A DNA stretch of 42,208 bases from a virus. The stretch covers positions 1-42,208 of IMG/VR virus record IMGVR_UViG_3300028920_000136; one strand, written 5' to 3'. The notes beneath the pieces were generated by a model that was given only the letters and a program-made list of their open reading frames with translations, did no database searches and was not told the DNA's origin. A program made the translations under genes and the position numbers. Positions within the stretch are counted from its first letter, which is position 1. Every line of letters begins with the position of its first letter. Below, one piece after another: positions 2,776 to 35,692 of this stretch.

Positions 2776-3066
2776 CTATTAAAAATACGCCGGAGGAATA
2801 GGTAATACACGAGGGGCGAAAAATGAGAGTAGAACTATCACCCCTTTTGGTGCTATAACCGTATCATTACAATTGCGTCTGGACCTGCCAGGTTTCGCGA
2901 GCTTGAAGGGTCCTTTGCCTTTGTCGGGTCCGGGAGGCGTCGCGACCTTCCGGATGAAAACTAAGCCCGTGAAGGGCTTTCCTCATAAAAGTAACGCCTG
3001 GTTCACCCCTAACCCAGGGACCGGCTGACCACCGGTCCCTAATCTTTTGGACTGGAGGCGGAGAAC
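2776..3066 (+). other. Gene-free leader upstream of the terminase operon, with hairpins
   Basis: About 290 bases with no convincing gene. It contains an 11-codon ORF (2823-2858) after GAGGGG, a small hairpin with AAGCCC/GGGCTT arms (about 2963-2979), and a 9-bp hairpin AGGGACCGG/CCGGTCCCT at 3016-3040 followed by AATCTTTT. I see no good sigma-70 promoter on the plus strand, consistent with an activator-dependent late promoter for the ArpU-like protein. The hairpins could act as a terminator or attenuator before the packaging genes. Confidence 0.5.
3016..3048 (+). terminator. Possible weak terminator or attenuator before packaging genes
   Basis: Perfect 9-bp stem (3016-3024 with 3032-3040), 7-base loop, then a short TCTTTT tract. 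It lies 19 bases before the next gene's start. The T tract is short, so attenuation or transcript protection is as likely as full termination. Confidence 0.45.
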
Positions 3067-3234
3067 ATGGCAGAAAGCAGAATAGAACATCCCCTTTGTT
3101 TCCAGGGCGCCGCCTTCAGGTTCCCCGATGAAATCATGGAGGATGCAGCGGGAAGTTATTACAACCTGGACGATCATGAAGCTATCCAGTCTTTCATCAT
3201 CATGGCGAAAAGAGCTGTCCAAAATGCGGAATAA
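3067..3234 (+). CDS. Small hypothetical protein, 55 aa, upstream of terS
   Basis: A 55-residue acidic protein starting MAESRIEHPLCF after a strong GGAGGCGGAG site. Its stop codon overlaps the first possible start of the small terminase gene (3224), so the two are probably translationally coupled. The C-terminal half (DDHEAIQSFIIMAKRA) should be helical. No known domain recognised. Too short for a domain search to be decisive, but ribosome site, spacing and coupling support a real gene. Confidence 0.55.
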   Translation: MAESRIEHPLCFQGAAFRFPDEIMEDAAGSYYNLDDHEAIQSFIIMAKRAVQNAE

Positions 3235-3934
3235 GATGAACGCGAAACAACAGAAATTTGTTCTCGCCTGGCTGAAGTGTGACAACATTTCGGAAGCTGC
3301 GCGGGAGAGTGGTTATTCGATTCGCTACGCTTATAACCTGGTAGAGAAACCTCATATTCGCGACTATTACGAAAAAGAAAAAACGAAACTTCTACGCCGT
3401 CAGGAAGTGAGCGCGGAAAGAGTGCTGCAGGAGATCGCGCGCCTCGGCTTCTCTAATATCCGGGATATAGCTTCCTGGGAGCAGAAGCGCGAGGAATACC
3501 AGGACGAAAACGGCGCTTCCACCTTCCCGGAAGACATTACCGGGGAAGACGACAAGGAAGAGGGGACAGAATACCGGATTATCGGAGGAGTACAGGTCAA
3601 GCCCTCGGACCAGCTCGCGGACGACGCAGCAGCGGCGATACAGGAAATTTCTGACACCAAGTATGGGCTGCGGGTCAAGCTGCATAATAAAATGTCTGCT
3701 CTTGAGGTCCTGGCGAAGATCACCGACCTGTTACCGAAGGGGGCGGGCGGGTCTGTCCACGATCCTATTCACCACCAGCACAATGTCAGCTTGTCGGACC
3801 TTTTCGACCCTGATACGAGGGAGGCGGTTATCCGTGAATATCTCGAACTTGAGCAGGGAGGACCTGCAGAAGATCGGTCCGATGGCTATGAAAATCGAGA
3901 TATGGAGCAGGAGTCCCTACCGGTTCCTGACTGA
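3224..3934 (+). CDS. terS: Terminase small subunit
   Basis: A protein of about 236 residues with the N-terminal pattern of the Terminase_2 family (SPP1 G1P-like): KQQKFVLAWLKCDNISEAAR, then a helix-turn-helix stretch (SGYSIRYAYNLV), which binds the packaging site. The middle is acidic and probably oligomerises; the C-terminus should contact the large subunit. The start could be 3224 (MRNKMNAK) or 3236 (MNAKQQ); both overlap or abut the stop of the 55-residue gene. Its 3' end overlaps the start of the large-subunit ATPase ORF by about 50 bases in another frame. The family call is good; the start is uncertain by four codons. Confidence 0.85.
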   Translation: MRNKMNAKQQKFVLAWLKCDNISEAARESGYSIRYAYNLVEKPHIRDYYEKEKTKLLRRQEVSAERVLQEIARLGFSNIRDIASWEQKREEYQDENGASTFPEDITGEDDKEEGTEYRIIGGVQVKPSDQLADDAAAAIQEISDTKYGLRVKLHNKMSALEVLAKITDLLPKGAGGSVHDPIHHQHNVSLSDLFDPDTREAVIREYLELEQGGPAEDRSDGYENRDMEQESLPVPD

Positions 3935-4499
3935 CTGCTGCTGGACCATGGACGAGGCGGACCAGGGCAAGGTAAAGCGCTTTCCTGAAAAGCCTCATAT
4001 CAGGGTTATTGCGGATCGCTGGCTCCGATATGACGTGCTGCTGGTCCCGAAGTCACGGCGGATGATGTGTACCTGGACGTTTTTGGCGCTTCATCTGTGG
4101 GCGGCTCTCTTCCATGGGAACAGCGCCATATTCATCCAGTCGAAGAAGGCGGAAGACAGCCAATTCCTGCTCGGTGAAAAGCGGCTGCTCTTCCTGTACA
4201 GGAATCTTCCCGCGGGCTATCCCTGGGCGGGGATCGAGCGCGCCATAAAGGGAAAGAACGGATACGACCGGCTCTATTTCGATAACGGCTCATATATCTA
4301 CGCGGTAGCACAGGGCGCGGACCAGCTCAGGCAGTACACGGCTTCATACATCTACGCCACGGAGCTCGCATTTTGGGACTATCCGCAAAGCACCTGGAGA
4401 GCCATGAAGCCCACCTTAGAAGGGGGCGGGAAGGTAGCTATTGACAGCTCCGCGGGTCCGGGCTTCTTCAAAGACCTGGTCTACGGGTTCCAGGAGTGA
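3882..4499 (+). CDS. terL: Terminase large subunit, ATPase part (split gene, N-terminal half)
   Basis: A 205-residue protein holding only the packaging ATPase domain. The divergent Walker A is VPKSRRMMCTW at 55-65, where terminases keep the lysine and the small hydroxyl residue but not the glycines. The Walker B-like strand is YIYATELAFW, with E161 as candidate catalytic glutamate. SSAGPGFF near 189-196 marks the end of the ATPase fold. The ORF then stops, while the matching nuclease domain is a separate ORF at 6165-6971. Large terminases of this type are normally one chain of roughly 450-550 residues. It overlaps terS, as usual for coupled terminase genes. The two halves presumably assemble in trans; alternatively the gene is decayed. 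Confidence 0.8.
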   Translation: MAMKIEIWSRSPYRFLTDCCWTMDEADQGKVKRFPEKPHIRVIADRWLRYDVLLVPKSRRMMCTWTFLALHLWAALFHGNSAIFIQSKKAEDSQFLLGEKRLLFLYRNLPAGYPWAGIERAIKGKNGYDRLYFDNGSYIYAVAQGADQLRQYTASYIYATELAFWDYPQSTWRAMKPTLEGGGKVAIDSSAGPGFFKDLVYGFQE

Positions 4500-4505
4500 T
4501 AGATC

Positions 4506-4643
4506 ATGAAGAAATTCAAAAAAACGAGGGAAGGTCCCTTGGTGGCTTCCATCGCAGAGATACTACGCGCAAAGAAGGGGAGCGGTCATGACATGGGTGA
4601 AGAATCTTCCAGAGGACGTGATCGAACAGATCGAGGAGGATGA
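4506..4643 (+). CDS. Small basic hypothetical protein, 45 aa (inside the split terminase)
   Basis: A 45-residue basic protein starting MKKFKKTREGPLVASI, six bases after the stop of the ATPase ORF. It overlaps the next small gene (4588) in a different frame. No similarity to terminase linker sequence is apparent, so it is not simply the frameshifted continuation of the ATPase gene. No strong ribosome site, so this is one of the weaker gene calls. Confidence 0.38.
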   Translation: MKKFKKTREGPLVASIAEILRAKKGSGHDMGEESSRGRDRTDRGG

Positions 4644-4749
4644 AGAGTATGTATCCAGGGGCAAGTCGAACAAGGCGCGGCGGCGGCGGATAAAGAATCT
4701 GTCCCTTCGGCGCCTTTCTATTTACGACGAGGGGAGGCGGCGAAAATGA
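4588..4749 (+). CDS. Small charged hypothetical protein, 53 aa
   Basis: A 53-residue protein, MTWVKNLPEDVIEQIEEDEE followed by a strongly basic part with four consecutive Arg codons. The acidic first half and basic second half suggest a nucleic-acid or protein-binding peptide. AAGGGGAG precedes the ATG by a few bases, and its stop overlaps the start of the secreted coiled-coil gene (ATGA), so it is coupled to it. I do not recognise a family. Confidence 0.5.
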   Translation: MTWVKNLPEDVIEQIEEDEEYVSRGKSNKARRRRIKNLSLRRLSIYDEGRRRK

Positions 4750-5126
4750 AGAAATTCACCGCGCTGCTGCTTGTTTCTATCCTGTTGTTTCTGCCTTTCT
4801 GCGCCCTGGCTGATACGGAGGCACTACCAGAGGACCCGGTCAGTCAGGACGGACAGGGGGTGGAGGTACAGCAGGGCGTCGTCGTTACCATAGCCGAATA
4901 CCTGGCGATGGTTCAGAAGATCATGGAGCTGCGACAGGCGGTCAGCTATTGGCGGCAAGTCTTCATGGCGGAATACGGGAAGCGTCAGGAGATAGAGGGA
5001 AAAGCCCAGGAGCTCCAACGAATCAATATCATGCTCCGGGTCTACAATGTCGAGCTCAAAACGAGGAACGACCACTTAAGGAAACAGGTTAAGGAGCTCG
5101 GCGGCGACCCTGACACCCATGATTAA
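4746..5126 (+). CDS. Secreted coiled-coil protein, 126 aa
   Basis: Has a classic Sec signal peptide: MKKF, a hydrophobic run to about residue 19, and a likely cleavage after CALA (22-23). A Pro/Asp/Gln-rich linker follows, then a long helix (about 45-118) with heptad-like spacing that should form a coiled coil. A Cys lies near the end of the signal peptide (LPFC), but the preceding residues do not make a proper lipobox. The product is expected in the periplasm or outside the cell. Superinfection exclusion or a spanin-like role is possible, but it is far from the lysis genes and I cannot assign a function. Confidence 0.7.
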   Translation: MKKFTALLLVSILLFLPFCALADTEALPEDPVSQDGQGVEVQQGVVVTIAEYLAMVQKIMELRQAVSYWRQVFMAEYGKRQEIEGKAQELQRINIMLRVYNVELKTRNDHLRKQVKELGGDPDTHD

Positions 5127-5940
5127 CCTTCCCGATGAACCATGCAGAGGACGGGGCGGAGAACTGCTCAGGATAGACGAGCGCTCCCATCCGTTCATCC
5201 GGGACAAGAAACTGCTTTACCTGGTAGGACTCGGCGACATTCACCTGGGGAAAGGCTGCGACAAGTCCCTGCTTTTCAAGTACCTGCAGTGGGGAAGGGA
5301 TAAGGGTAATGTGATCTTCGCTGGAACCGGCGATTTTCTCCAGTGCGATCTCATCAGCAGCAAGGGCGATGTATACGAACAGGAAGGACCGGTAGAACAA
5401 CAGGTCAACGAGGCGGAACGGCTGCTCAGACCTTACCGGGACCTGTTCATCTGTGGAGTGGGCGGCAATCATCCCAAGCGCGTCCGCAAGGCTGTAGGCT
5501 GGAACCCTGAAAAGGAGCTGTTCCGGCGCCTGGAGATACCCTTCTATGAGAACGAGGCTTTTATCTCCATCAAGTTTGGGCGGGATATGAAGTACAACAG
5601 AAAACCTGTGGTCTATTCCATATACCTGAATCATGGCGACTGGACCAACGGGAGGAAGACGGGCTCCAGCGTTAACCGCATGGAAGAGCTTATGGAACAG
5701 ATCGACGCAGACATTTTCATGGCTGGACACGTTCACAGGCTACATGGATCAGTGAGGAAAAAGCGGTCCGTCAATGCTAATGGGAAAACGGTTAATTATC
5801 GCTTAATGAGGTTTGTGAATTGTGGGACCCTGCAGCGCCATCAGCCCTATGCGAAGGATAAAGGCTTTGCGCCTTCGCCCCTGGGCTTCGGGATCGTGCT
5901 TTTGTGGGGAACGGAGAAAAAACACAGGGTCATGATATAG
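5119..5940 (+). CDS. Calcineurin-like metallophosphoesterase
   Basis: A 273-residue protein with all five metallophosphoesterase motifs in order: GDIH (39-42), GD (71-72), GNH (116-118), NHGDW (171-175) and GHVH (203-206). These residues bind the two-metal centre, so the enzyme should be active. The family hydrolyses phosphodiesters or phosphomonoesters (nucleases, cyclic nucleotides, phosphoproteins), and the substrate cannot be read from sequence. No signal peptide: cytoplasmic. It overlaps the preceding secreted protein gene by eight bases. Unusually, it lies between the two halves of the large terminase; related enzymes do occur as stand-alone phage genes. Confidence 0.88.
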   Translation: MINLPDEPCRGRGGELLRIDERSHPFIRDKKLLYLVGLGDIHLGKGCDKSLLFKYLQWGRDKGNVIFAGTGDFLQCDLISSKGDVYEQEGPVEQQVNEAERLLRPYRDLFICGVGGNHPKRVRKAVGWNPEKELFRRLEIPFYENEAFISIKFGRDMKYNRKPVVYSIYLNHGDWTNGRKTGSSVNRMEELMEQIDADIFMAGHVHRLHGSVRKKRSVNANGKTVNYRLMRFVNCGTLQRHQPYAKDKGFAPSPLGFGIVLLWGTEKKHRVMI

Positions 5941-5955
5941 CGGGAGGCGGGAAGG

Positions 5956-6159
5956 ATGCCGAAACTTTACGGAGAGAGGACAGACGGGGTCAGTCCTTGC
6001 GAAGCCTGTCTACATGGTCCTTTTTGGTATGACTCCAGGCACAGCTGCCATGAGGACTGCCCGCGGTATCAGGAATGGAAAGCCAAGACAGGGAGGTCAT
6101 ATTTTGGCGATCTTGCCGAAACACTTATCCATGCGCCAGGTGCAGCAGAGGGAGAGTAG
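5956..6159 (+). CDS. Small Cys-rich, zinc-binding-like protein, 67 aa
   Basis: A 67-residue protein with CEAC at 15-18 and HSCHEDC at about 29-35, four Cys plus His residues that could hold one zinc ion. GGGAGGCGGGAAGG lies directly before the ATG. It ends six bases before the nuclease half of the large terminase. Function unknown; a small DNA- or protein-binding adaptor is plausible. Confidence 0.6.
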   Translation: MPKLYGERTDGVSPCEACLHGPFWYDSRHSCHEDCPRYQEWKAKTGRSYFGDLAETLIHAPGAAEGE

Positions 6160-6164
6160 CCGTT

Positions 6165-6971
6165 ATGAGAGGTATCACAGAATGGGACACGCCCCAAGGC
6201 TTACACGTCGTGAGGTTGCATTACACGGCGGACCCGGAGAAGCGCAAGCCGGAGTGGAAGGATAAAGCCATGTTAGGGATGCCGCAAGCCGACTGGAAGG
6301 CTGAATATGAAATTGATTTCGATGTGGTCCTGGGAAGGGCGTATTTCCCGGAGTTCCGCTCAGACTTTCATGTCGCGTCGGGTCCTATCCAGCCCATAGC
6401 GAACTATCCCATAGGCGGCGGATGGGACTTCGGGCTCACCCCTGCAACCGTTCATGTCCAGCTATCGCCGAAGGGTCAGATATTGGTATTGCATCCGGAA
6501 AGCCAGAGCTGGGACGCCGGCATCAAGCGCCATGGCGGAGTGGTACAGAAGGTTCGGGAGCTCTTTTTCCCCGGCTTCTTCTTCAAGGATTACGGCGATC
6601 CGGCGGGCGGGTCCAGGGCGCAGACCGACGAAAAGACCTGCTTCGAGATACTGGCGACCGAGTACAGCATTCATGTTGCACCGGGTCCGGTAACGCAGCC
6701 GGAGAGGGATGATCCTTTCCGCGATCTTCTCACGCGGACAACATCGAGAGGCGAGCCTATGTTCCTGGTCGATCCGCGCTGTAAGTGGCTCATATCGGCT
6801 CTGAGCGGCGGGTACTGTCATAAACAGGTGATGGAGCGATATTTAGACGAACCTGAGAAGAACGAATACTCACACATAGTGGACGCGCTGCTTTACGTGG
6901 TGGCGCGACTTTTGAAGCGTCCAGAACGGCGGGTAAAACCGAAGAATCGCCGACGATCCGGGCAGCTATAG
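6165..6971 (+). CDS. terL: Terminase large subunit, nuclease part (split gene, C-terminal half)
   Basis: A 268-residue protein that begins at the linker between ATPase and nuclease (MRGITEWDTPQGLHVVRLHY) and carries the RNase H-like headful nuclease fold. Candidate metal ligands are D88 in GGGWDFG, D145 in DYGDP, and D240 in YSHIVDALLYV. The frame is open 30 codons further upstream, but those residues do not look like terminase, and GAGGGAGAG directly before 6165 fixes this start. It cuts concatemeric DNA during packaging. Having its own ribosome site and start codon shows that it is made as a separate chain from the ATPase at 3882-4499. Confidence 0.82.
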   Translation: MRGITEWDTPQGLHVVRLHYTADPEKRKPEWKDKAMLGMPQADWKAEYEIDFDVVLGRAYFPEFRSDFHVASGPIQPIANYPIGGGWDFGLTPATVHVQLSPKGQILVLHPESQSWDAGIKRHGGVVQKVRELFFPGFFFKDYGDPAGGSRAQTDEKTCFEILATEYSIHVAPGPVTQPERDDPFRDLLTRTTSRGEPMFLVDPRCKWLISALSGGYCHKQVMERYLDEPEKNEYSHIVDALLYVVARLLKRPERRVKPKNRRRSGQL

Positions 6972-6985
6972 GGGAGGAAGAGGAA

Positions 6986-7378
6986 ATGAGAAGGCTATTA
7001 GCGAGCGGGACTATTACCTGGGATGGACAGAGTACGTCCGGATATATCTTCGTGCCGGCACCGGCTCAGGAAGAGGCGGACCTTTTGCTTGAGATAGACG
7101 ATAGCGACGACTGCGGGAAGAACCTCACGGGGACCGTTAAGCTCGGAGCGGCTGCAGATTCCTTCGTGGATATTCTGCTCCCGTCCACCATTGAGCTTGA
7201 TACCTGGGAAGCTCCTTCCATCGCCATTACCAAGGGGACCCACAAGTTCTATGGACCTGTTCCCGGTTCCATTATAGGGCGGCATGGGCTACGGCTCATC
7301 CTGACCGCTGCAGAAGCTCCGACGAACGAGAAGGAAACCAATGTGAAGGTGTGGGAGTGTCCCCGTTATAGGGATTAA
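6986..7378 (+). CDS. Hypothetical virion-associated protein, 130 aa
   Basis: Beta-rich 130-residue protein (TITWDGQSTSGYIFVPAPA, many Thr/Val/Ile strands) between the terminase nuclease and the portal. No known motif. The fold prediction by eye is a small beta-sandwich, which would suit a decoration or connector-associated protein. Good GGGGAGGAAGAGG ribosome site. Its role in the head is inferred from position only. Confidence 0.6.
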   Translation: MRRLLASGTITWDGQSTSGYIFVPAPAQEEADLLLEIDDSDDCGKNLTGTVKLGAAADSFVDILLPSTIELDTWEAPSIAITKGTHKFYGPVPGSIIGRHGLRLILTAAEAPTNEKETNVKVWECPRYRD

Positions 7379-7396
7379 CCCTGAAGGGAGGACGCC

Positions 7397-9325
7397 ATGA
7401 TTAAGCTGAAAGCCGACCAGAAGGAGGAAATTCTGGAGCTAATAAAAATGGACATCCGGGAGGATGAAACCTTTTACCAGGAAACCATACTCCCCGCCCT
7501 TCAGGAGCGCTGGAACATCTTTGACGCCAGTCCTGAATATTACGCGAGTAAGTTCAAGTTCCTGACGAAGCGCTGCGACTTCGTGGCGACCGACTTCGCT
7601 AACGTGGTCGGCTGGATGTTGCCCTTTCTTGACGGCGTGTTCAATTCGAACCGCCAGGTCTTGAAGGTGGTAGTAGGGACGGAGAATTCCGACAGTAAGG
7701 CTGCAGAGGTCCTGAACAAGCTCATCAAGAAGCAGCTTACCAAGGATAATGATGGCTTTTCCCTTATCCATTTATGGAACACTGACGCCCTTATAACTAA
7801 CTGGGCGTGGCTCATGGGATGGTGGGAAAGGAACGTGAAGGAGCTTAAAACCGTTACCGAAACGGTAGACGAGCAGACCCTTGACCGCTACCAGAAGCAG
7901 ACCCTCATCGAGGTAGTGAGCGCGGAGGAGATCGAGGACGCCCAGGGAACCGGGCTTGGGGTTTATAACGTGGAGTATAAGGTCTTCGAGTATACCAGGA
8001 ACCGCCCGGTCCTGGAGCTCATGCCGCAATGGGAGGTCCTGGTGGATTCGAAGTGCCGGAACTACAAGGCTGCGCGCCGCATGTTCCATCGTAGGACCGA
8101 CGTCACCGCGTCAGACCTGATGAAAATGCGGCTCATGAAGGACAAGGAAGGGGAGCCGATCTACGACGTTCAGGCGATTAACCGGATTCTCAAACAGGGC
8201 GGCAGCTCCGACAAGCAGAGCAAGGATGGACTTAAACAGCAAGTGGAAGGGAACAAGGAGGAGGGGAAAAACATCCATCCATCGAGGCGGGAATATACCG
8301 TTTACGAAGGATTTGACCAGCTCCCCATAGGTGACAAAGGCACATTACAAACCGTCCTTGTCACTGTGTGTAATAACGAGATACTGAGGGTCGAGGACGA
8401 AGAGGTGTCCCTGCCCTTCGTGCTTCTCTCTACACAGATGGAGCCGCACCGCCTTTTTGCCAATCGCGGACTCGCGGACCTTATGGGACAGCTCCAGCAT
8501 ATCCGCACCGCCTTGTGGCGGCTAATCATCATCAATGCCGCCAAGGTCAACAATCCGCGCACCCTATACAATCCGGAGGCTATCGACCCGGACGATATGG
8601 AGGGCGAGTTCGACCTGGTGGAAATGCTGCGGACCATCAATCAGGGCGACATATACGAGCTCAATATAGGGACCCTGGACCCGCTGACCTTCCAGTTCCT
8701 CGAAAACATCACAGTAGAGGAGGGCGAGAGGTCCGGGATCACCGATTTTACCAAGGGGAACCATGGGACCAAGAAGATAGCCGACACCGCTACAGGCGTT
8801 ACAGCTGTAATGAGCGCCGCCAACAAGATTCTGGAGCAGACCGCCCGCGTCATGGGGGAAACGGGATATGCCGACCTTTACCGGCTACTTGTGGATATGA
8901 ACATCAAGTATTGCGATCCTGAAACCGTTTTCAGGCTTACCGGGGAATGGTTCGACCTGTCCACCATCAATGCAGAGTGGGATGTGGAGCTCCAGGCAGG
9001 ACTCGCGCTTTCCACCAAGGAACAGAGCCTTGCGTCGATCCAGCTGCTCTATCAGCTCTTGATGGAGCTCAAGGGTGCCGGCTGGCCTTATGTGGACGAC
9101 CAGAATGTCTATAACCTGATAGCAAGAATGGCGGAGGAGATCGGCGAGAAGGGCATAGAGGAATTCGTACATGATCCGGAGGAATTCGACAAGGAAGTTC
9201 TAAATCGAGCATTTGGAGGCGGGGAGAATGGCAACGAAGAGGGCGCCCAAGGAGCGCCGAGTGGAGCAGGTACAGATAGGGGAGAAGGCGAGAATAGCGC
9301 TGGAGTACCTGGAGCAGTGGTGTGA
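7397..9325 (+). CDS. Portal protein
   Basis: A 642-residue protein directly downstream of the terminase and upstream of scaffold and capsid, the standard slot for the portal. The composition fits a podovirus-type portal: helical clip and wing regions, a Trp-rich stretch (WNTDALITNWAWLMGWWER) near 126-144, a conserved-looking helical region near 340-390, and a Gly/Glu-rich disordered tail after about 605. The portal forms the dodecameric ring through which DNA enters and leaves. Its 3' end overlaps the next gene by about 98 bases. The call rests on size, context and composition more than on a single motif. Confidence 0.78.
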   Translation: MIKLKADQKEEILELIKMDIREDETFYQETILPALQERWNIFDASPEYYASKFKFLTKRCDFVATDFANVVGWMLPFLDGVFNSNRQVLKVVVGTENSDSKAAEVLNKLIKKQLTKDNDGFSLIHLWNTDALITNWAWLMGWWERNVKELKTVTETVDEQTLDRYQKQTLIEVVSAEEIEDAQGTGLGVYNVEYKVFEYTRNRPVLELMPQWEVLVDSKCRNYKAARRMFHRRTDVTASDLMKMRLMKDKEGEPIYDVQAINRILKQGGSSDKQSKDGLKQQVEGNKEEGKNIHPSRREYTVYEGFDQLPIGDKGTLQTVLVTVCNNEILRVEDEEVSLPFVLLSTQMEPHRLFANRGLADLMGQLQHIRTALWRLIIINAAKVNNPRTLYNPEAIDPDDMEGEFDLVEMLRTINQGDIYELNIGTLDPLTFQFLENITVEEGERSGITDFTKGNHGTKKIADTATGVTAVMSAANKILEQTARVMGETGYADLYRLLVDMNIKYCDPETVFRLTGEWFDLSTINAEWDVELQAGLALSTKEQSLASIQLLYQLLMELKGAGWPYVDDQNVYNLIARMAEEIGEKGIEEFVHDPEEFDKEVLNRAFGGGENGNEEGAQGAPSGAGTDRGEGENSAGVPGAVV

Positions 9326-16505: not shown

Positions 16506-16831
16506 ATGATGAATATTAAGGCAGGGTCTACCTATATTCTTAACATGTATTACGAGGATTCTGATGGTACGCCCATAGATATTAGCGGCTGGAGCGCCCG
16601 GATGAAAATGCGCCGGGGAGCGTCCACCACTGCAGAGCTTGTCCTGGATTGTGGACCCTACCTTACCATAACCGGGGAAGAGGGAAAGGTGAACCTTACC
16701 CTTTCCGGAACGGTCACATCTGGATTGAGCGGCGGCGGAGTAGCCGACTGCGAGATAGATGATGGTGAGGGCTTCGTGGTCCCCATGCTTGATCTTGAGC
16801 CCTTTGGCGTTACTCCGGAGGTGTGCGAGTA

Positions 16832-16832
<1 letters not shown>
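16506..16832 (+). CDS. Small tail or baseplate-associated beta protein, 108 aa
   Basis: A 108-residue protein with the pattern common in a small phage tail protein group: an initial strand with a D-S-D-G-T turn ([19 protein letters not shown]), then a loop and repeated beta strands ending near the C-terminus. GGGGGG lies upstream; ATG codons at 16506 and 16509 are both possible. Its stop overlaps the start of the collagen-like fibre (TAATG), so it may be needed with the fibre as its attachment partner. Confidence 0.55.
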
Positions 16833-18685
<1,853 letters not shown>

Positions 18686-19229: not shown

Positions 19230-20096
19230 ATGAGGGTCAGCGCGGTAATGATAGTCAAGAATGAGGCGCCATGTATCGAGGAATGCCTGGAGTCCATAAA
19301 GGACCTCGACGAGATCGTCATAGTGGATACTGGCTCCACCGACGGGACCCAGGACATTTGTAGAAGGTACACCGACAAGGTGTATGAGGATTACAGATGG
19401 AACGATGATTTTGCGGAGGCGCGGAACCATGCCATATCGAAGGCGACGGGCGACTGGCTCTATTCCATAGACGCGGATCAGTGGTCGGCGTCCAGTGCCA
19501 ATGATATACGCCATGAAGCGGAGATCGCAGAGAAGGAAGGGCATAAGGTGTGCTTTGTGAAATCCGTTCATGCTGCATCCCTAATGCTTCATTACCGGGA
19601 ACTGCTCTGGAAGAACGGCGAAGGAATTCACTGGGTGGGGAAGGTCCATGAATGCCTTTCCGTCAAGGCGACAAAAAAGACGGACCTTGTCAGATATTAC
19701 GGATACTCAAAAAACCACGCCCTTGATCCGAACAGAAACATCCGGATATTGCTAAAGGGCGATACCAGCAATCCCAGGACCCAGTTTTACCTGGCGCGCG
19801 AGTATTACGAGAGAACAAGGTTCGAGGAGGCTATTTCATGGTTCGACAAATACCTTGAGAAAGCCTGGTGGATACCGGAGAAGTGCGAAGCTCTCCTTAT
19901 GAAGGCGCGCTGCCTGTGGTTTCTCCATAGGGGGAATGAGGCACGAGCCACAACCTTGGAGTGTATCAGGAATAATCCGGACTTCCGGGAGGCACTTTTA
20001 TTTATGGCACAGCTTTATTACGAGCCATGGAAGTCAAAATGGGAGAGGCTGGCAAAGGCAGCCACGAACGAAGATGTCCTGTTCATCAGACGATGA
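19230..20096 (+). CDS. GT2 family glycosyltransferase with C-terminal TPR-like repeats
   Basis: A 288-residue protein. The N-terminal GT-A fold has the GT2 hallmarks: VMIVKNEAP at 6-14, IVDTGSTDGT at 31-40 for nucleotide-sugar binding, W..DFAEARN near 57-66, and the DXD-type metal site DADQW at 81-85. The C-terminal half shows helical TPR-like repeats (FYLAREYYERTRFEEAISWF and later AREA-type helices). Glucosyltransferases with this architecture act on sugars or glycoproteins. No TM segment, so cytoplasmic. It stands right after the fibre genes, so it may modify the virion fibre or host cell wall sugars; the substrate is not visible. Confidence 0.82.
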   Translation: MRVSAVMIVKNEAPCIEECLESIKDLDEIVIVDTGSTDGTQDICRRYTDKVYEDYRWNDDFAEARNHAISKATGDWLYSIDADQWSASSANDIRHEAEIAEKEGHKVCFVKSVHAASLMLHYRELLWKNGEGIHWVGKVHECLSVKATKKTDLVRYYGYSKNHALDPNRNIRILLKGDTSNPRTQFYLAREYYERTRFEEAISWFDKYLEKAWWIPEKCEALLMKARCLWFLHRGNEARATTLECIRNNPDFREALLFMAQLYYEPWKSKWERLAKAATNEDVLFIRR

Positions 20097-22855: not shown

Positions 22856-25800
22856 ATGAAATCCATAGAAGAGCTGCTTGAAGAATATCGCACAGAACAG
22901 GCAGAACTGAATAAAGACAAGTCCGTGAAAGACCTGCTCGCGGAGCGCCGAAAAGAGGAAGTGGACAAGGTCAATCAGGTCCCTGGAGCGAACATCCTTG
23001 GCGGAAGATTCACAGGGGAAGAGGAAACTCCCACCTTCACAAAGAACATGGAAGCTCTTGGTGAGGTATGGGACCATACGGGGGACATGCTTTCCCGCCT
23101 TTCGTCCCTGTTGCCCGTTTCCGAGGAGAGAGCCCGGCAGCTCGATCTTCCTGTCCCGATGCACGAAACTCCGGAAAGACAGGAGAAACCGCTTTCACAG
23201 GCTGAAAACATCTTAATGGAGCATATCGGAGGCATGTTCGGGCTTGGAAGGACCCTGGAGAAAGAGAAGGAACTGAAACAGGCTCAGGCGAAGTATGGCA
23301 CTGAAATGCGCCAGAAGAAAATGACCACTGAACCGGGAGCACCTGTGGAACAGGAACCTTCGCAGCCCAGCAACATCGCTTCTCAGATACTCGCTCACAT
23401 CCTTGGTACAGGTGTGGAGTACATGCCCTATGTCATGGGCGCAGCCCCAGCTGGAGGCTTGGCGAGCAGCGCCATTGGTCCGGCTTCCGGATCGGTCCCG
23501 GCAGGAATGCGGATTCTACGCGAGGCTGTCAGGGGTGCCACCACTCTTGGTGGAGCAGAGTTAATCAAGAACGTGGTGGAGGGCGGCATGGAACCGGAGG
23601 ACCTGGAGAAGGCTGTGCTCATTGGAGCCATAGCTGATCCCATCATTTCAGAGTCCGTCCGCTTTATAGCGGGAGCCCTGAAGGGCAAGAAGATAGAGCT
23701 CAGGGGGAAGCTGCTCCAGGAGGGTGAGGTCCCCGTTTCCCTGAACAAGTACGACCAGGGGACCATGAAGAAGTTCATCACGGAGATAAGTAGGGGAAAT
23801 ATCGAAGGAGCTCGATCCCTTCTTTCCGAGGGCGATGCAGACCTGCTTATTAACCTTTACAGCAACTCCCCCTCCTTCAAGAAGACCGTGATCGAGATAG
23901 CCAAGGGTCACAAAATGCCTGGCAAGGTGAATGTACGGATCGAGGAATTCATGAGGTCTTCCGGAAGAACGGCCCCGGCAGCCAGAGCCCAGGGACCCGT
24001 CGCGGGTCTTTATGAAAAGGGAGGGCTCAGGGGCGCCCAGGCAGCAGGAAGGACTGGAGTACAGCGTCCAAAGTATGGACCTATGGAAGGCACTCCTGGG
24101 GAGAGAGCCCACGCCGGACTGAAGGCGCCTATTCAGGAAGGACGCCCGGATATACTGGTCGGCGGCACGGGCATGAGCGCCGAACAAGAGCTCGCCCTGG
24201 TACAGCGGTCGCTTACTAAGTTCCGGAGGGCGGTGCAGACCACCAGGGCAAAGGGACATAGACCATCAAATAGGATACTGGAGAGGATCGCTTCCCTGGA
24301 GGCTACAGAGGAGCAGCTGAAGCAGAGGGTCAGTCAGGGCAAATATCCCGACGAGGTCATGGAAAAAGGGCAGGAGAAGGCGAAGAAACCCCTGACCGGC
24401 ATGATGCCTCAGCCCTACAAGGAGCCACTGCCACCGGCTGTGTATGATAAAAAGGCGAGGGTCCAGGTTCCAGAGAAGCCAGGAGAACCAATAGCTGTGG
24501 GGACAGACCAGAAATTCCTTCATTCCTTTGAAGGTGATGCGGGGATCGGAACGGGAGGCGCCACGGCGGAAGCCCTTTCTCCTGAAGAGATGCAGAGGCT
24601 CAGGAACCTGAACGATAAGGCAAAAGGTAGAGAACTATACAAGGCGGACCAGGTCGATACGACCGGTCCTTATGTGGTGTTCCGTGAAACAAAGATGGAA
24701 GAGCTTTCTGCCGAAGAAAGCCGGGAGCTTTCGGAGCTCAGGGAAAAGGCTGGAGATCGTTATGGCTCGATAAGGAACCCCATTACCCAGGAGGAACGGC
24801 GCCCCTATAACAGGGTCCAGTATCCCCCATATCAAGGGAAGGAAGAAATCGCGGTTCCGGAGGAGGTCACTGCTCAGGCGGACCGGGTATTATCCGGGCT
24901 TGAAGCGCAGCTGTGGGAGCTTGGATATGATCCTGTCGCGACCAATAGACATGACATGACCACCGAGGGAGAGAAGATCGCAGACGCCATTAACTCCATC
25001 AGCGCTGGACTTCACCGGCTCAATAATTCAAAGCTCGCTATCTCCAGAGGATACAAGAGAGCCGACCCCGCGAGGGCAGAGGAGGATGAAACAAGGATCA
25101 GGAAGTTCCTGGACATCGTCGAGAAGGAAGGTCCTGAAAATGCTCCTGACTGGCTAACCTGGGATGGCACAGACCAGAAACCGGTTCCCCCCAAGGCTAC
25201 CGAGAAACCAACTAAAGCTGGGGGCGTTGTTTACGAGATTTACAAGGGTGACGAGGTCCTTGAGTCCGGACCTGTAGTTTCCGGTATGGGCGCTAAAGAC
25301 CTGGCTGCGAAGGAAAAAGCCCTTGGCGCGGATGGCTGGCGGATAAAAAAGAGCTTCACACTCTTCGATGGTCTTCCTGGAGAATCAATCGAAAAGGGAC
25401 CGGAGATTTCCGATAAGGAATATATAGTCAGGGCTCACGCCAAAGGAGTCCAGGGATTAGGCGGGTACACTGATATGGTCTTTCAGACCAAGGCTGAAGC
25501 TGAGCAGAATAAGATCGGGCAGGAGAAACACTCTGATATTAGTTTCGCCCAAATTATCGAAAGACCAAGGGGGACATACGTTAATCATCCCAAAAAAGGA
25601 CAAATTAGGATCGTCAATCAGGATGATAAGTATGTCTACTTCGAGGACGGGAAGAAAGCTCTGAAGAGTGCTACGTGGCTGAAAGGGCAGCAGCTTGGAC
25701 CAGCCAAGGAGCCCGCCCCGAAGAAAGAAGAAGAGATCGAGTGGGAAGGCAAACCGAAGGGATACGCCAGGGAACATCCCGATTACATAGGGCATCCCAA

Positions 25801-28800
25801 AGGGAAGACCCATAGTCCGATTGTCAGGAAAGACGAAAAGTATGTCTATTTTAAGGACAATTCGCAGGAGTTAAGAAATGCAAGATGGTTGAAGGGGCGG
25901 GGAGATTATTCCGAGGAACAGGGCCATCCTGTTGTGTTCATGGAAAGGTCCGGAACGGTATGGACAGCCAAGGACGATATTCCTAACGAAAACGGGCAAT
26001 ATGTTTACTGGGTCACGATCAGACAGGATAAAGGACCCTATGGTCCGACCTTTGACGAGCCATGTTACCGGTTACACACGGACACGCAACAGAAAGCGGT
26101 CTATGAGGGATACAAAGAGCTCCTTCGCCAAGCGGGGAGCAGCAACTATGGATTTAAGCCTGGAGAAATAAAGAAGATCAAAAATATTGTCAAGGAGCTG
26201 GAGGCGAAACTTCCCCAGGAACCCATAGTCGAAAAACCGGTATCGCAAGTCAAAGAATTTAAGGATATGTCCCTTCCTGAAATGGTGAAGAACTGGGATG
26301 CTGTAACCAACGGACTCAGAAAAGACATGGTCAGAATGACCTTGTATAACAAGATAAACAAGTCCCAGGACTACGGAGAGCTCCAGAAGATAATCGACCT
26401 GGCGGAAATGAGGGACATAGGTCCCGTTTTCCCGATGAAGGGCGTGGATCATGAGGAGCTTTATAAGGAATTAAGGCTCCAGATGGATTATCTACAGCGC
26501 CACGGAAAGGGAAAGTCCTCGATAGAGCCACGGAGAGGGGTATCGCCCCCCGAAGAGGGTATAAATGTATTCCCGGCGGGGGTTAGGAACGCTCCGTCGA
26601 AATCTACCGGCGATTTGGCGAAGAAATCGCCCACGGCGACCCCTGCCATAGAGGAAATACGCCCGAAGAGTAAAAAGACCGAGTCCATCAGGAAGGCGAG
26701 GCGTGATCTTTCCATGACGGGCGCCATGCAGGGCGATATTGACGGCGTATCCGTGAAGATCATAAGTAATGAAACACATCCGGACAGATATGGGCTTGAG
26801 TTTGTTATTGACGGGGTCAGGATGAACCCGAACTGGGACGCTCCGATCAACAATAACAGCCTTGCCGAAGCACCGAACAGGGCAGTAGAGGTCCTGGAAC
26901 AGCTTGAATCAGGGGAGTTATCGAAAGAATGGCTCACATCCATGAATACGGGCGGACCCGCACCGGCACCCAAAAAGGACGTGGTTTCCAGCGCCGGGAC
27001 AAGCGTCAAGGTCAAAACCCAGTCGGGACAGAATGTAGATACACAGTATATACTTCTTGATGCCGACGACCTGGTGGTTTCCCATAAGCTCAACTTCGAG
27101 CCGAACCCGGAATATCCGAAGGAGCTGCAGCCGAGGGAGCGGAACAGGGGCGCTTCACAGGTCCAGGTGGAGAGGATTCTTTCCAAGCTCGATCCTGAAA
27201 GACTGGGTCCTTCCCTCATGGCTACAGAGGGAGCTCCCATAGTAGGACCCGATCTTGTAGTGGAGTCCGGGAATGGGCGCACCCTGGCTATTCAAGCCAT
27301 GTATGACCGACATGTGACGGGAGCTATATCCAAGTATTCCGCCTGGCTCAAGGAGAATGCCGGCAGTTTTGGCATAGGAACTGGAGAGATAGGGAAGTAC
27401 AAAAAGCCCATCTTGGTCAGAAAGAGGACCAGCGATATTGACAGGGTTAAGTTCGCCCAGGCAGCCAACGAGTCGCCGATTTCCACTATGAGCGCCACGG
27501 AACAGGCGCAGCTCGATGCGAAACGCGTAACTATGGACATGCTCAAGACCTTCAATGTCAATGCCAACGGCGATATACTTAGTGGGAACAGCACCTTTAT
27601 CCAACAGTTCAGTGAACTGGTATCGGATAATGAGCTGGGACGCTTTATGGCTCCTGATGGGAAGGTTTCCCAGGAGGGTATCCAGAGGATCAGAAACGCC
27701 CTATTCTTCAAGGCTTTCGGTGATCCTTCGGCGCTGGTCCGGATGAGCGAAATGGCTGACGATAACACCAAGAACATCATCAACGGACTGGTCCAGGCGG
27801 CTCCAAGGATGGCTATGCTGCAGAGCCAGATAGAGCAAGGACAGGCTTATGATATTTCCATAGCCCAAGAAACAGTACGGGCGGTCAATGTGCTTTCTAA
27901 TCTACGCACCGAGGGGACCAAGGTCATAGACTACATCAATCAGGGGAGCCTCTTCGACGATGAACTGTCCCGGTTGGAGAAGAAGATTCTCATGTTCTTC
28001 GACGAGAACAAGAGAAGTGCCAAAAAGATAGCCAGACTCTACGATGAATTCGCCTATATTGTGGAGGGGCGAGGCGACCCCAGGACTCAAAAGATATTCG
28101 ATACCGAGGAGCCGACCCCGGAAGAGGTTTTCGAGGTCGCGCGAAAGATGGTGAGTGAAGGTGAAAAAGGCGGACAAGGTGGACTCTTCGAGGAGAGAGC
28201 CCCGGCGCAGCGTGATAAACAAGCTCTACGCGGCGACCAGGGCAAGAAAGGCGCGGGAACAGAAGAAATAGGTCCGGTGGCAATGAAGGCGTCCGGGAAC
28301 CCGCTCAGATACATGGAGCCGGACAGACCGGTGGCGGCTGCAGGAGAGAAGGTCGCGCCTATTCATATTAAGGAGATCAAGGAAAAGTTCAACGAGCTCT
28401 TCACTCCATGGAGGGAGAAGCGGCTCGGCAGGGGAATGAAGAGTGTGCTGGGATGGTATAATCCCGGCACTGATATTATCAGGACCCGGTTCAATAACGA
28501 TATAACTGTGGCTATGCACGAGCTCGGACACTTCCTTGACTTCAAGCTGGGACTCCATGATCCCATCAATGCGACCATGGCTACGGAGCTCATAAGACAC
28601 GGACTCGACACGTCCGCCCTTGGTTATTCTTCGGAGCAGATCATCATGGAGGGCGTGGCTCAGTTCTTCCAGTTCTATTCTGTCAATCCGGACCAGGCTA
28701 AGACTGAATTCCCCATGTACTATGAGAATTTCATGCGGGCGCTGAAGGCTAATCCGGAGGTCAAGTCCGACGTGGATCAGTTCGTGGAGCTGGTCAGAAG

Positions 28801-31276
28801 ATGGTACAAGCAGGACCCGCTACAGAGGCTCAAGGGCAGTATGGTCCACTCTTCCAAGGTTTCTCACCCGAACCTGACCATGAAGGACAGGGCTAACATC
28901 CTGTGGGTAGATACCTGGACAGACTGGATGGACGACAAATATCCTCTCTTGCAGGTGGACAGGACCGTCAGCAGAATCAAGAACATTGATCCGAAAACTC
29001 TGCCGGACGAGCTCTCTCCATACAACACCGCCAGGGCTTCGGTGGGAGTGCCAAAAGATGTGGAGCGTCAGATAGAAGGGCTTGAGTCTATACTGAAAAA
29101 CATTCCGGAGGAAGAAGCCTCGGATTTCCAGGCATTCCTTTCCGCTCAGACGGCAATGGATTACTGGGAGAACGGGCTGGAGCCGGGAATGGGGATCACC
29201 AAACAAGAGGCTCAGGAAATTATCGACCAGGCTCCTCAGCAGTACGCAGACCTGGCGGAAAAGATATATGACTGGTATAAGGGAGTGATGTTAAAAACCC
29301 TTGTCCCGGACATGCTCCCCAGGGTGCAGCTCGAATACTGGAGCGACAGGACCATTGATCCCGATACCGGGAAGATGAGAGGGAAATGGCCTCACTATAC
29401 CCCGGTCTTCAGGGACCTCAACGATGAAGAGGCTGTGGCTAAAGTCCTTCGTGGAAGGGGGAAGAGTTTCGTCAACATTCCTGAACCTCGCAATCTGAAG
29501 GCGAGAAAGGGCGCGGGGGACCCCGCAGCTGTAAAGCCCTTCTTCTATCCCCTGGAAATGATGGTCAAGTCCGTGATCCAGGCATATAACCTGAAAGCCC
29601 GTAACGATGTGGGTAAGGTCTTCCTGAACATAGCCAGGTTGCCGAAAATGGGCGAGGTAGCCGAGATCGTCGGAGGACCGGCGTCCCCTGCGGACTGCGT
29701 TTTTTCAGTGTGGCACGGAGGCGAGAGAAAGTTCGTCGCTACGGACCCGCTGATCTACCGGGCGGTCACGGAAATGGCGGGAGATACTGCTTTCAATAAC
29801 ATGTTATGGAAGGGTATGCAGAAAATCTCTAACCTGATGAGGAAATCCTTTACCAGATATAATCCCGCTTTCGCTGCGAAAAACCTTATCAGGGACCCCT
29901 TCGATGTGGCGCGGAACACGGACGCAAAAAATAAACTTTTATTCCAGCATCACGTTGTAGGGCTCATGAAGATACTCTCTGACGATCCCATCTTTATCGA
30001 GGCAATAGAACAGGGGGTCCTCTATTCCGGAATATCCGAGGAACTGAAGGACCTGACAAAAGGTGTCAATGAAATGTTCCACCAGGGATGGAAGGATGAA
30101 ATGCAGCACGATCTAAACCCGATGAAATGGCTCCAGATATTAGGGGAGTTTAATTCCAAGGGTGAGATCGCCCCGAAGATCGCGGAATACATGTACCTTA
30201 GACAACAGGGGGTATCCCCAAAAAGAGCAGTGGTCAAGGCACGAGAGGTCAATATCGACTTCCAGTGTCAGGGACGCCAGGCGAGGAAGGCAAACCAGGT
30301 AATTCCCTTCTTCAGCCCGGCGCTTCAGGGAATAAGAATCATGGCAAAGGTCCTGAAGGATCATCCCGTGAGGACCCTGTCCCGACTATGGCTCCTGGTG
30401 GTGGTTCCTACCGTTGCCCTGTGGTGGAAGTACAAGGACGATCCGGAGTACCAGGAAATGAGCAGAAGGAAGAGAGATAACTATTGGAATTTCAAGGTGG
30501 GGGACAAGTGGTATAGAATACCTGGACCCTTTGAAACCAAGATTCTCTTCGGAGCCGTCATAGAGAGAGCTCTGGACTACGCCTATGGCAAGGACCCGGA
30601 GGCGTTCAGAGGATTCGGCAAGGCGCTCCGGGAGAGCCTGTTGCCAGAAGTGATCCCCGGAGCCATACAGCCTTGGTGGGAGGTAGCTCAGAACTGGATC
30701 GGGTACATGGAAAGACCCATCGTTCCAAAGAGCATGGAGGGAATGCCGAAGGAACTACAGTACGGACCCTACACTTCCGACACAGCTAAGGCGCTTTCCA
30801 AGGTGATCCCCCTTTCCCCCTACGAGATAGACCATGTCTATCGAGGATACACGGGACAGCTGGGACAGGCGGTCCTTTCCACTGCGGAAGCCATAACCAA
30901 ATGGGTCAAGGGCGACGAGGATAATGCGCCCAAGAGATATGCTCACGAATTGCCCTTCATAAATTCCTTCACATCCACGCCATACAGGGGTTCGGAGAGT
31001 GTGGATCGGTTCTACGATCACCTGAAGGAGCTGGAAGAGGGACACAACGGCGCCAAGGCGCAGGGGAAGGTATATCAATACGAGGGCTTGCATAGGCAGT
31101 TCCAGAAAACCCGGCAGACCCTTTCCCTACTGTGGAAGAGCAACAACGCGATCCGGGAGCATCCGAACATGTCCTCGGAGCAGAAACGCGAAAGGATGGA
31201 CAAGTTCTATCTCCAGGCGGTCAAGATAGCCAGGGCTCAGCTGGACAGCTATTACAAGCACATGAAGCGTAAGTAG
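22856..31276 (+). CDS. Giant polyvalent protein: ddrB-ParB domain, zincin metallopeptidase, LPD38-like domain
   Basis: A 2806-residue protein, one fifth of the window. Parts in order: a charged helical start; a hydrophobic Gly/Ala-rich region near 185-275 that may touch membranes; charged linkers; two related repeats ending YVYFEDG..LKSATWLKG and YVYFKDN..LRNARWLKG (about 905-945 and 970-1016); a ddrB-like ParB domain (about 1380-1650, with VESGNGRT near 1470); a zincin protease with HELGH at 1888-1892 and a third-ligand candidate E1932 in MEGVAQFF; and an LPD38-like C-terminal domain (about 2320-2580) with NPAFAAKNLIRD and YRIPGPFETKILFG. This is the large polyvalent protein architecture of phages and conjugative elements, thought to enter the host with DNA and counter defences. 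The large reading frame is intact. Confidence 0.87.
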   Translation: MKSIEELLEEYRTEQAELNKDKSVKDLLAERRKEEVDKVNQVPGANILGGRFTGEEETPTFTKNMEALGEVWDHTGDMLSRLSSLLPVSEERARQLDLPVPMHETPERQEKPLSQAENILMEHIGGMFGLGRTLEKEKELKQAQAKYGTEMRQKKMTTEPGAPVEQEPSQPSNIASQILAHILGTGVEYMPYVMGAAPAGGLASSAIGPASGSVPAGMRILREAVRGATTLGGAELIKNVVEGGMEPEDLEKAVLIGAIADPIISESVRFIAGALKGKKIELRGKLLQEGEVPVSLNKYDQGTMKKFITEISRGNIEGARSLLSEGDADLLINLYSNSPSFKKTVIEIAKGHKMPGKVNVRIEEFMRSSGRTAPAARAQGPVAGLYEKGGLRGAQAAGRTGVQRPKYGPMEGTPGERAHAGLKAPIQEGRPDILVGGTGMSAEQELALVQRSLTKFRRAVQTTRAKGHRPSNRILERIASLEATEEQLKQRVSQGKYPDEVMEKGQEKAKKPLTGMMPQPYKEPLPPAVYDKKARVQVPEKPGEPIAVGTDQKFLHSFEGDAGIGTGGATAEALSPEEMQRLRNLNDKAKGRELYKADQVDTTGPYVVFRETKMEELSAEESRELSELREKAGDRYGSIRNPITQEERRPYNRVQYPPYQGKEEIAVPEEVTAQADRVLSGLEAQLWELGYDPVATNRHDMTTEGEKIADAINSISAGLHRLNNSKLAISRGYKRADPARAEEDETRIRKFLDIVEKEGPENAPDWLTWDGTDQKPVPPKATEKPTKAGGVVYEIYKGDEVLESGPVVSGMGAKDLAAKEKALGADGWRIKKSFTLFDGLPGESIEKGPEISDKEYIVRAHAKGVQGLGGYTDMVFQTKAEAEQNKIGQEKHSDISFAQIIERPRGTYVNHPKKGQIRIVNQDDKYVYFEDGKKALKSATWLKGQQLGPAKEPAPKKEEEIEWEGKPKGYAREHPDYIGHPKGKTHSPIVRKDEKYVYFKDNSQELRNARWLKGRGDYSEEQGHPVVFMERSGTVWTAKDDIPNENGQYVYWVTIRQDKGPYGPTFDEPCYRLHTDTQQKAVYEGYKELLRQAGSSNYGFKPGEIKKIKNIVKELEAKLPQEPIVEKPVSQVKEFKDMSLPEMVKNWDAVTNGLRKDMVRMTLYNKINKSQDYGELQKIIDLAEMRDIGPVFPMKGVDHEELYKELRLQMDYLQRHGKGKSSIEPRRGVSPPEEGINVFPAGVRNAPSKSTGDLAKKSPTATPAIEEIRPKSKKTESIRKARRDLSMTGAMQGDIDGVSVKIISNETHPDRYGLEFVIDGVRMNPNWDAPINNNSLAEAPNRAVEVLEQLESGELSKEWLTSMNTGGPAPAPKKDVVSSAGTSVKVKTQSGQNVDTQYILLDADDLVVSHKLNFEPNPEYPKELQPRERNRGASQVQVERILSKLDPERLGPSLMATEGAPIVGPDLVVESGNGRTLAIQAMYDRHVTGAISKYSAWLKENAGSFGIGTGEIGKYKKPILVRKRTSDIDRVKFAQAANESPISTMSATEQAQLDAKRVTMDMLKTFNVNANGDILSGNSTFIQQFSELVSDNELGRFMAPDGKVSQEGIQRIRNALFFKAFGDPSALVRMSEMADDNTKNIINGLVQAAPRMAMLQSQIEQGQAYDISIAQETVRAVNVLSNLRTEGTKVIDYINQGSLFDDELSRLEKKILMFFDENKRSAKKIARLYDEFAYIVEGRGDPRTQKIFDTEEPTPEEVFEVARKMVSEGEKGGQGGLFEERAPAQRDKQALRGDQGKKGAGTEEIGPVAMKASGNPLRYMEPDRPVAAAGEKVAPIHIKEIKEKFNELFTPWREKRLGRGMKSVLGWYNPGTDIIRTRFNNDITVAMHELGHFLDFKLGLHDPINATMATELIRHGLDTSALGYSSEQIIMEGVAQFFQFYSVNPDQAKTEFPMYYENFMRALKANPEVKSDVDQFVELVRRWYKQDPLQRLKGSMVHSSKVSHPNLTMKDRANILWVDTWTDWMDDKYPLLQVDRTVSRIKNIDPKTLPDELSPYNTARASVGVPKDVERQIEGLESILKNIPEEEASDFQAFLSAQTAMDYWENGLEPGMGITKQEAQEIIDQAPQQYADLAEKIYDWYKGVMLKTLVPDMLPRVQLEYWSDRTIDPDTGKMRGKWPHYTPVFRDLNDEEAVAKVLRGRGKSFVNIPEPRNLKARKGAGDPAAVKPFFYPLEMMVKSVIQAYNLKARNDVGKVFLNIARLPKMGEVAEIVGGPASPADCVFSVWHGGERKFVATDPLIYRAVTEMAGDTAFNNMLWKGMQKISNLMRKSFTRYNPAFAAKNLIRDPFDVARNTDAKNKLLFQHHVVGLMKILSDDPIFIEAIEQGVLYSGISEELKDLTKGVNEMFHQGWKDEMQHDLNPMKWLQILGEFNSKGEIAPKIAEYMYLRQQGVSPKRAVVKAREVNIDFQCQGRQARKANQVIPFFSPALQGIRIMAKVLKDHPVRTLSRLWLLVVVPTVALWWKYKDDPEYQEMSRRKRDNYWNFKVGDKWYRIPGPFETKILFGAVIERALDYAYGKDPEAFRGFGKALRESLLPEVIPGAIQPWWEVAQNWIGYMERPIVPKSMEGMPKELQYGPYTSDTAKALSKVIPLSPYEIDHVYRGYTGQLGQAVLSTAEAITKWVKGDEDNAPKRYAHELPFINSFTSTPYRGSESVDRFYDHLKELEEGHNGAKAQGKVYQYEGLHRQFQKTRQTLSLLWKSNNAIREHPNMSSEQKRERMDKFYLQAVKIARAQLDSYYKHMKRK

Positions 31277-35170: not shown

Positions 35171-35197
35171 TGCCCTCCTCCGTCCACCGCTGTAAGA

Positions 35198-35692
35198 TTA
35201 TTGACCGTCGAAGCTACAGATATTCTCAGATGTATAGGGGTCCTGGTCCTGGTGTTCCTTCAACCCCTCAAAAAGACCTCTCATGACACACGCCATGGTT
35301 TTTGCTTCATTCTCTGATAACCCTCTTTGCACCGCACTGTGTAAATCCAAAATAAGATCGGGGTCTGCTTTGGCAAGCCTCCGGAGAAGAGTGTCAAGGT
35401 CCATTAAGCTCATTTTCGTCCTCCACCTTGGATTCTCCCGATACTTCTGAACGAACGATTCCAACTCGCCCTCAGTATGCTGCAAACTATCCTCAAAAAT
35501 CTGGGCTACTGTGATACCCAGCCCCTTTGCCAGGCTTTCTATCGTCGCGAGGGATGGCTGCGTTCTCCCCCGCTCGATGTCGCTCAGAAAGCTGGCGCTA
35601 ATGTTCGACGCGGCGGCGAGTTCCCGACCATTAAGACCTTTCGCCTGGCGTAATTGCTTGATCCGAAGACCAATGCTCTCACTGATAACCAT
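35198..35692 (-). CDS. CI-like repressor, XRE family
   Basis: A 164-residue protein with an N-terminal HTH of the XRE/Cro-CI type (residues about 8-62: IKQLRQAKGLNGRELAAASN and the recognition helix SASFLSDIERGRTQPS). A helical C-terminal half follows, with no peptidase S24 motif, so it would not self-cleave on RecA activation as lambda CI does. It is transcribed leftward from the divergent promoter region, ahead of the integrase, and probably represses the rightward early promoter. Lysogeny maintenance is inferred from position and fold. Confidence 0.82.
   Translation of the reverse strand: MVISESIGLRIKQLRQAKGLNGRELAAASNISASFLSDIERGRTQPSLATIESLAKGLGITVAQIFEDSLQHTEGELESFVQKYRENPRWRTKMSLMDLDTLLRRLAKADPDLILDLHSAVQRGLSENEAKTMACVMRGLFEGLKEHQDQDPYTSENICSFDGQ

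Follow-up and report, generated by a model that had tools for sequence, protein, structure and literature searches.

The large terminase subunit (TerL) serves as the universal marker gene for tailed phages, and taxonomy, marker trees and models of the packaging motor all treat it as one chain. T4 gp17 and the TerLs of Geobacillus phage D6E, P22 and SPP1 have a common core fold, a lid and a RuvC-like nuclease with conserved acidic residues, and their genes neighbour those for the small subunit (TerS) and the portal. The same features are found in the window, i.e. the whole 42,208-bp virus record analysed here. However, each of the four phages encodes them in one chain, whereas in the window they are divided between two genes, with the cut between core and lid.

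In the literature, a split TerL is noted for the Arthrobacter phages of cluster AY, such as BillyTP (PMC11920828; PP978841). In these the ATPase and nuclease parts are likewise encoded by two genes, which are consecutive and overlapping (359 and 198 aa in BillyTP). Judged from gene lengths and a reading of the sequence, the AY break seems to follow the lid, which is kept with the ATPase, unlike the window break, which is placed before the lid. No inserted genes or inversions have been reported for AY phages, whereas both occur in the clade of the window, and profiles A3 and A4 had no significant match among the BillyTP genes, giving no sign of kinship with the AY-type split. Other phage enzymes are also made as one ancestral chain from two genes, including NrdA of Aeh1, gp43 of Aeromonas phage 25 and the T4 topoisomerase gp39/gp60, and activity was reported for reassembled NrdA and gp43 (PMC2988022). 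These cases are tied to homing endonucleases or to an inter-cistronic element, while most split-TerL relatives have neither. Finally, the terL coding sequence is interrupted by introns or inteins in Campylobacter phage IBB_35 (PMC3322345) and Vibrio phage JA1 (PMC3670811), and splicing restores one chain; the window has no such element. Two-gene TerLs are thus known from AY phages, while for a clade-wide core/lid split we found no report in literature that covered few subscription journals.

Domain content of the two TerL genes

The head-gene block of the window includes TerS, two TerL ORFs, an SU10-type portal and a major head protein (phrog_1328, E 2e-73), with the TerS and portal genes, identified by Pfam, adjoining the split TerL genes (Table 1). 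The single-chain arrangement, usual but not universal for TerL, is absent, and the two genes lie 1,665 nt apart. The N half matches positions 272-412 of the phrog_2 model (terminase large subunit) and the C half positions 427-601; therefore, they represent consecutive parts of one family. This agrees with the sequence-only reading of the locus, which proposed a TerL encoded by two separate genes. The same reading started the ATPase half at ATG 3882, but chain 1 probably starts at GTG 3834, since GGGAGG is found just upstream and the extra N-terminal residues are present in relatives.

Table 1. Coordinates of the split TerL locus, its motifs and its neighbours in the window
Feature	Position	Strand	Basis
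TerS, terminase small subunit	3236..3934	+	ORF open from 3128; Pfam Terminase_2 match begins 3236, E 4e-23
TerL chain 1, ATPase core, 221 aa (probable start)	3834..4499	+	phrog_2 E 8e-7; profile, model, Shine-Dalgarno
Walker A region of chain 1, K73-S-R75	4050-4058	+	conservation
Walker B Glu of chain 1, E177	4362-4364	+	conservation
Small ORF, 45 aa	4506..4643	+	without family (Pfam, PHROG)
Small ORF, 53 aa	4588..4749	+	without family (Pfam, PHROG)
ORF, 126 aa	4746..5126	+	resembles signal peptide + coiled coil on reading the sequence; without significant family
Metallophosphoesterase, DNA repair exonuclease-like	5119..5940	+	Pfam Metallophos E 1.6e-5; phrog_7339 E 1e-24
Small Cys-rich ORF, 67 aa	5956..6159	+	without family (Pfam, PHROG)
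TerL chain 2, ATPase lid + RuvC-like nuclease, 268 aa	6165..6971	+	phrog_2 E 7e-7; profile A3; model
Lid part of chain 2, residues 1-55	6165..6329	+	precedes nuclease fold; D6E 193-232 by profile
Nuclease domain of chain 2, residues 56-253	6330..6923	+	D6E, P22, SPP1 structure matches; conservation
Portal protein, partner of motor	7397..9325	+	Pfam SU10_portal E 5e-95

Chain 1 is the ASCE ATPase core and includes both Walker motifs, A and B. Its match to Pfam Terminase_6N (E 0.007) is below the family cut-off; profile A2, built from N halves, matches T4 gp17 with E 3e-12. The AlphaFold2 model of this chain (pLDDT 94.5) aligned to gp17 101-303 with Z 24.1 and an rmsd of 2.3 over 200 residues, as well as to Sf6 4-165 and D6E 9-189. 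Across 63 sequences, K73, R75 and E177 are invariant, with the lysine and arginine kept in split and fused forms alike. The Walker A region, PKSRRMMCTW, is unusual: the conserved lysine stands at the beginning (KSR) and the end lacks GK[ST], a pattern resembling the deviant Walker A motif in lambda gpA.

Chain 2 provides a RuvC-like nuclease with conserved acidic residues. In its AlphaFold2 model (pLDDT 93.2), residues 56-252 aligned to D6E 233-417 with Z 20.2 and an rmsd of 2.8 over 175 residues, and further alignments were obtained with P22 (Z 17.6), SPP1 (Z 15.7) and gp17 361-558. Profile A3 matches the D6E terminase over residues 193-418 (E 1e-10); of the C-half profiles compared with PDB sequences, the larger one matches D6E and the smaller one has no match. 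D88 and D145 are invariant in 72 sequences and E112, H237 and D240 are conserved at 88-97%; together, the five residues make up a candidate active site. The sequence-only reading would have been refuted by related phages in which the second ORF is plainly something else than a terminase nuclease; the second ORF clearly is one.

The folds of the two chains are complementary without overlap, covering 101-303 and 361-558 of gp17 and 4-165 and 160-453 of Sf6. According to the structure comparison, the nuclease fold of chain 2 begins at residue 56, and residues 1-55, which correspond to D6E 193-232 in the profile alignment, fall between the structure-matched ranges, where the lid lies. These ranges and the span of profile A3 on D6E put the break at the junction of ATPase core and lid, some 55 residues before the nuclease domain starts, and the lid thus belongs to the nuclease chain. 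The domain linker, where the break had been placed from the sequence alone, is not its position.

As originally noted, the insert between the halves contains five genes including a metallophosphoesterase, the only one that could be assigned to a family. Its relatives, at 25-28%, are in Firmicutes phages. In base composition, the insert does not differ from the flanking sequence. There was no Rfam match in window positions 3600-7400, no intein-type family in either TerL half and no endonuclease gene in the insert according to Pfam and PHROG, which upholds the earlier statement that intron, intein and homing-endonuclease signatures are absent from the window.

Junction forms among relatives

Starting from each half, and in a further round from profiles A1 (built on C halves) and A2 (built on N halves), searches of IMG/VR and of bacterial genomes yielded at least ~165 related loci. 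Among the matches listed in the profile survey, 99 loci have both TerL parts, which are split in two ORFs at the homologous position in 82 loci and fused in one ORF in 17, though these counts are not prevalences since the searches were seeded mostly with split sequences. The same split, which the sequence-only reading had suggested looking for in related genomes, recurs in them. The halves are adjacent, overlapping or less than 150 nt apart in 36 of the 82 split loci listed, and 0.18-3.8 kb apart with unrelated genes between them in 26. In the remaining 20 the order is inverted and the nuclease gene comes first, 1.4-2.2 kb ahead of the ATPase gene; L148, the one inverted locus checked, has TerS directly before the ATPase gene (Pfam E 1.5e-14). 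The bacterial genome scan contributed two Megasphaera loci among the matches listed, both fused. One more locus, L143, was left out of the counts, as its nuclease half lies in two frames (623-1628) due to a sequencing error or decay of the copy. The second-round profiles contain their own targets and their scores are not independent, but the first-round profiles had already picked up almost every part at E <= 1e-3. The C half of L130, which passes the Pfam cut-off for Terminase_3C, gives independent support, as do the N halves of L148, L130 and L113, whose matches are to the N-terminal part of T4-like TerLs from isolates.

That many uncultivated relatives share the position of the cut suggests a long-standing, functional arrangement rather than a broken gene. 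Purifying selection acts on both halves, with dN/dS values of ~0.03-0.17 for split forms (pairs with unsaturated dS). Ten records checked, the window included, contain one N match and one C match each, and no further terminase was found in them with phrog_2. Since the record is metagenome-derived, a pseudogene, a defective prophage or an assembly artefact had to be considered, and the sequence-only reading had named a frameshift or assembly error as its possible refutation. No frameshift restores one frame, and the recurrence of the break in dozens of separate contigs excludes chance and assembly error. With intact motifs, composition unchanged across the insert and no intact replacement gene, we regard such explanations as extremely improbable for the window, while for the clade as a whole they are refuted by recurrence, selection and single copies.

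Where the halves are adjacent, the ATPase stop and the nuclease start usually lie only a few bases from each other and often overlap (ATGA, GTGA, TAATG, TAGTG). That many overlaps are in the -1 frame, and that the halves of L031 share one frame with a single TAG between them, would suit a mechanism making one chain after all, such as frameshifting, stop read-through, RNA splicing or protein splicing. However, the adjacent-form junctions use all three relative frames and all three stop codons, and thus cannot be explained by recoding, a changed code or a single inherited frameshift error. Inverted and kilobase-apart forms cannot be joined in this manner either, and both Rfam introns and intein-type families are lacking, leaving production of one chain very improbable. 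An alternative code reading through the stop was likewise ruled out by recurrence, the three frames and the three stop codons.

A further possibility is that terL was split by the insertion of a homing endonuclease or another mobile gene, as in NrdA of phage Aeh1; precedents are given in PMC2988022. Endonuclease-like genes indeed occur between the halves of two relatives: an endonuclease VII/HNH-type gene in L100 (6600-7250; phrog_1035, E 1e-25) and a HAD-like gene with a LAGLIDADG-type segment in L127 (1632-2540; LAGLIDADG_1 at the Pfam cut-off). On the other hand, the abutting and overlapping forms have nothing or almost nothing between their halves, the insert of the window is devoid of such a gene, and the separated state changes so often on the tree (see below) that the cargo looks later than the split. 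We therefore consider this origin improbable. We read the intervening genes as unrelated cargo acquired after the split. The 1.7-kb insert is not what caused the split, a point on which the first reading needs amending, because the halves abut or overlap in many relatives and unrelated genes entered the junction several times.

In the phage collection, no match was found by a nucleotide search with window positions 3000-8000 or by tblastn with the N half of the window. The C half matched 17 records by tblastn; six of the seven inspected carry one intact TerL ORF, and the seventh, Vibrio phage PVA7 (PQ582223, L024), has a fragmented TerL gene. In the deposited PVA7 record, TerL and portal are broken into many small ORFs, most likely by sequencing errors, unlike the clean split described here. 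No cultivated phage with the core/lid split was found in this collection.

Evolution of the split and a probable two-chain motor

In the 85-row tree, a single branch (SH-aLRT 98) sets the inverted forms apart from the rest, and there are at least nine changes of the separated state over starred branches; the lower figure, from this tree and the 35-row one, is at least seven. Between split and fused states, at least six changes are needed on this tree, which has long branches and an outgroup that is not one clade. A 35-row tree of the window's surroundings groups the Megasphaera-type single-chain forms with split L031 (100/98) inside the split clade, and a tree forcing together the split rows of this clade was rejected (p-AU 0.010), which suggests that the single-chain forms of Megasphaera prophages arose by re-fusion. 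A second fused group (L044, L045 and L049) pairs with split L114 (98/97). The fused form of L003 has an acidic stretch, NEDEPEEEQEPHDV, at the join. The simplest reading of these trees is an old split followed by at least two re-fusions, with other genes repeatedly entering the junction, although several independent splits may also have occurred at the same place.

The first reading held that either the halves work in trans or packaging is changed. Work in trans is consistent with the conserved split, purifying selection and complementary folds; the association of the halves we infer. It is quite likely that the genes encode a functional two-chain large terminase, in which the chains associate, the lid docks on the core and a ring of heterodimers packages and cuts DNA. 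Docking of the chain 2 lid on the chain 1 core would restore a TerL-like protomer and complete the ATPase, several heterodimers would form a ring on the portal, and this ring would pump DNA that the chain 2 nuclease would cut. In P74-26 TerL, the lid rotates relative to the core on ATP binding, and a Walker A arginine toggles to a lid glutamate in simulations (PMC7617512). With core and lid on different chains, an ATP cycle of this kind needs both, and we therefore prefer an obligate heterodimeric protomer to a free nuclease. The nesting of fused forms among split ones argues that the two parts are linked as one working unit.

Alternatively, the chains could be separate in time, with chain 1 alone translocating DNA and chain 2 acting as a free nuclease that joins only at the start and end of packaging. 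The inverted and far-apart TerL genes are not translationally coupled, and gene layout does not force a 1:1 complex, as the genes may be kilobases apart or inverted. In addition, PMC7672431 describes a phi29 motor ATPase that pumps with a vestigial nuclease-like domain. Nevertheless, with the lid on chain 2, chain 1 alone lacks an element whose movement belongs to the ATP cycle in other TerLs, and this alternative also fits poorly with fused forms nested in the split tree, so that we find it unlikely. Within the heterodimeric motor, a doubtful further proposal is that the ATP site is completed in trans and, as the nuclease chain carries the lid, docking and release of this chain switch the motor between pumping and cutting. 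If true, such a switch would be a control impossible for a single-chain terminase.

In this deep, mostly uncultivated clade, the one-chain rule is broken at the core/lid junction, within the ATPase module. Such phages would provide a naturally two-component motor. Its ATPase and nuclease parts could each be titrated or mutated on their own, making it testable whether lid and nuclease join the translocating stroke or act in cutting only. For annotation, TerL can be missed or truncated in phages with this split.

Other features of the window and its relatives

A 2,806-aa ORF (22856-31276) with ddrB-like ParB (E 9e-32) and LPD38 (E 1e-41) domains is, from its domain content, classified as a polyvalent protein, a type believed to enter the cell by injection along with the phage DNA. 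The 620-aa ORF at 16823-18685 consists mostly of collagen-like GPTGPTGP repeats and is probably a tail fibre or appendage; the open frame on its opposite strand is an artefact of the repeat. On the minus strand, a large serine recombinase gene (33590-35692; Pfam Resolvase/Recombinase) adjoins a Cro/C1-type regulator, and therefore the phage is probably temperate. A glycosyltransferase-like gene (19230-20096; phrog_13126, E 2e-41) lies within the structural gene block. In the relative L008, a 30-codon ORF at 5176-5266 (VSEILEGIVIGIAVVIWMQLLVDIAFPEIK), apparently membrane-spanning as judged by eye, shares a few bases with each of the two TerL halves.
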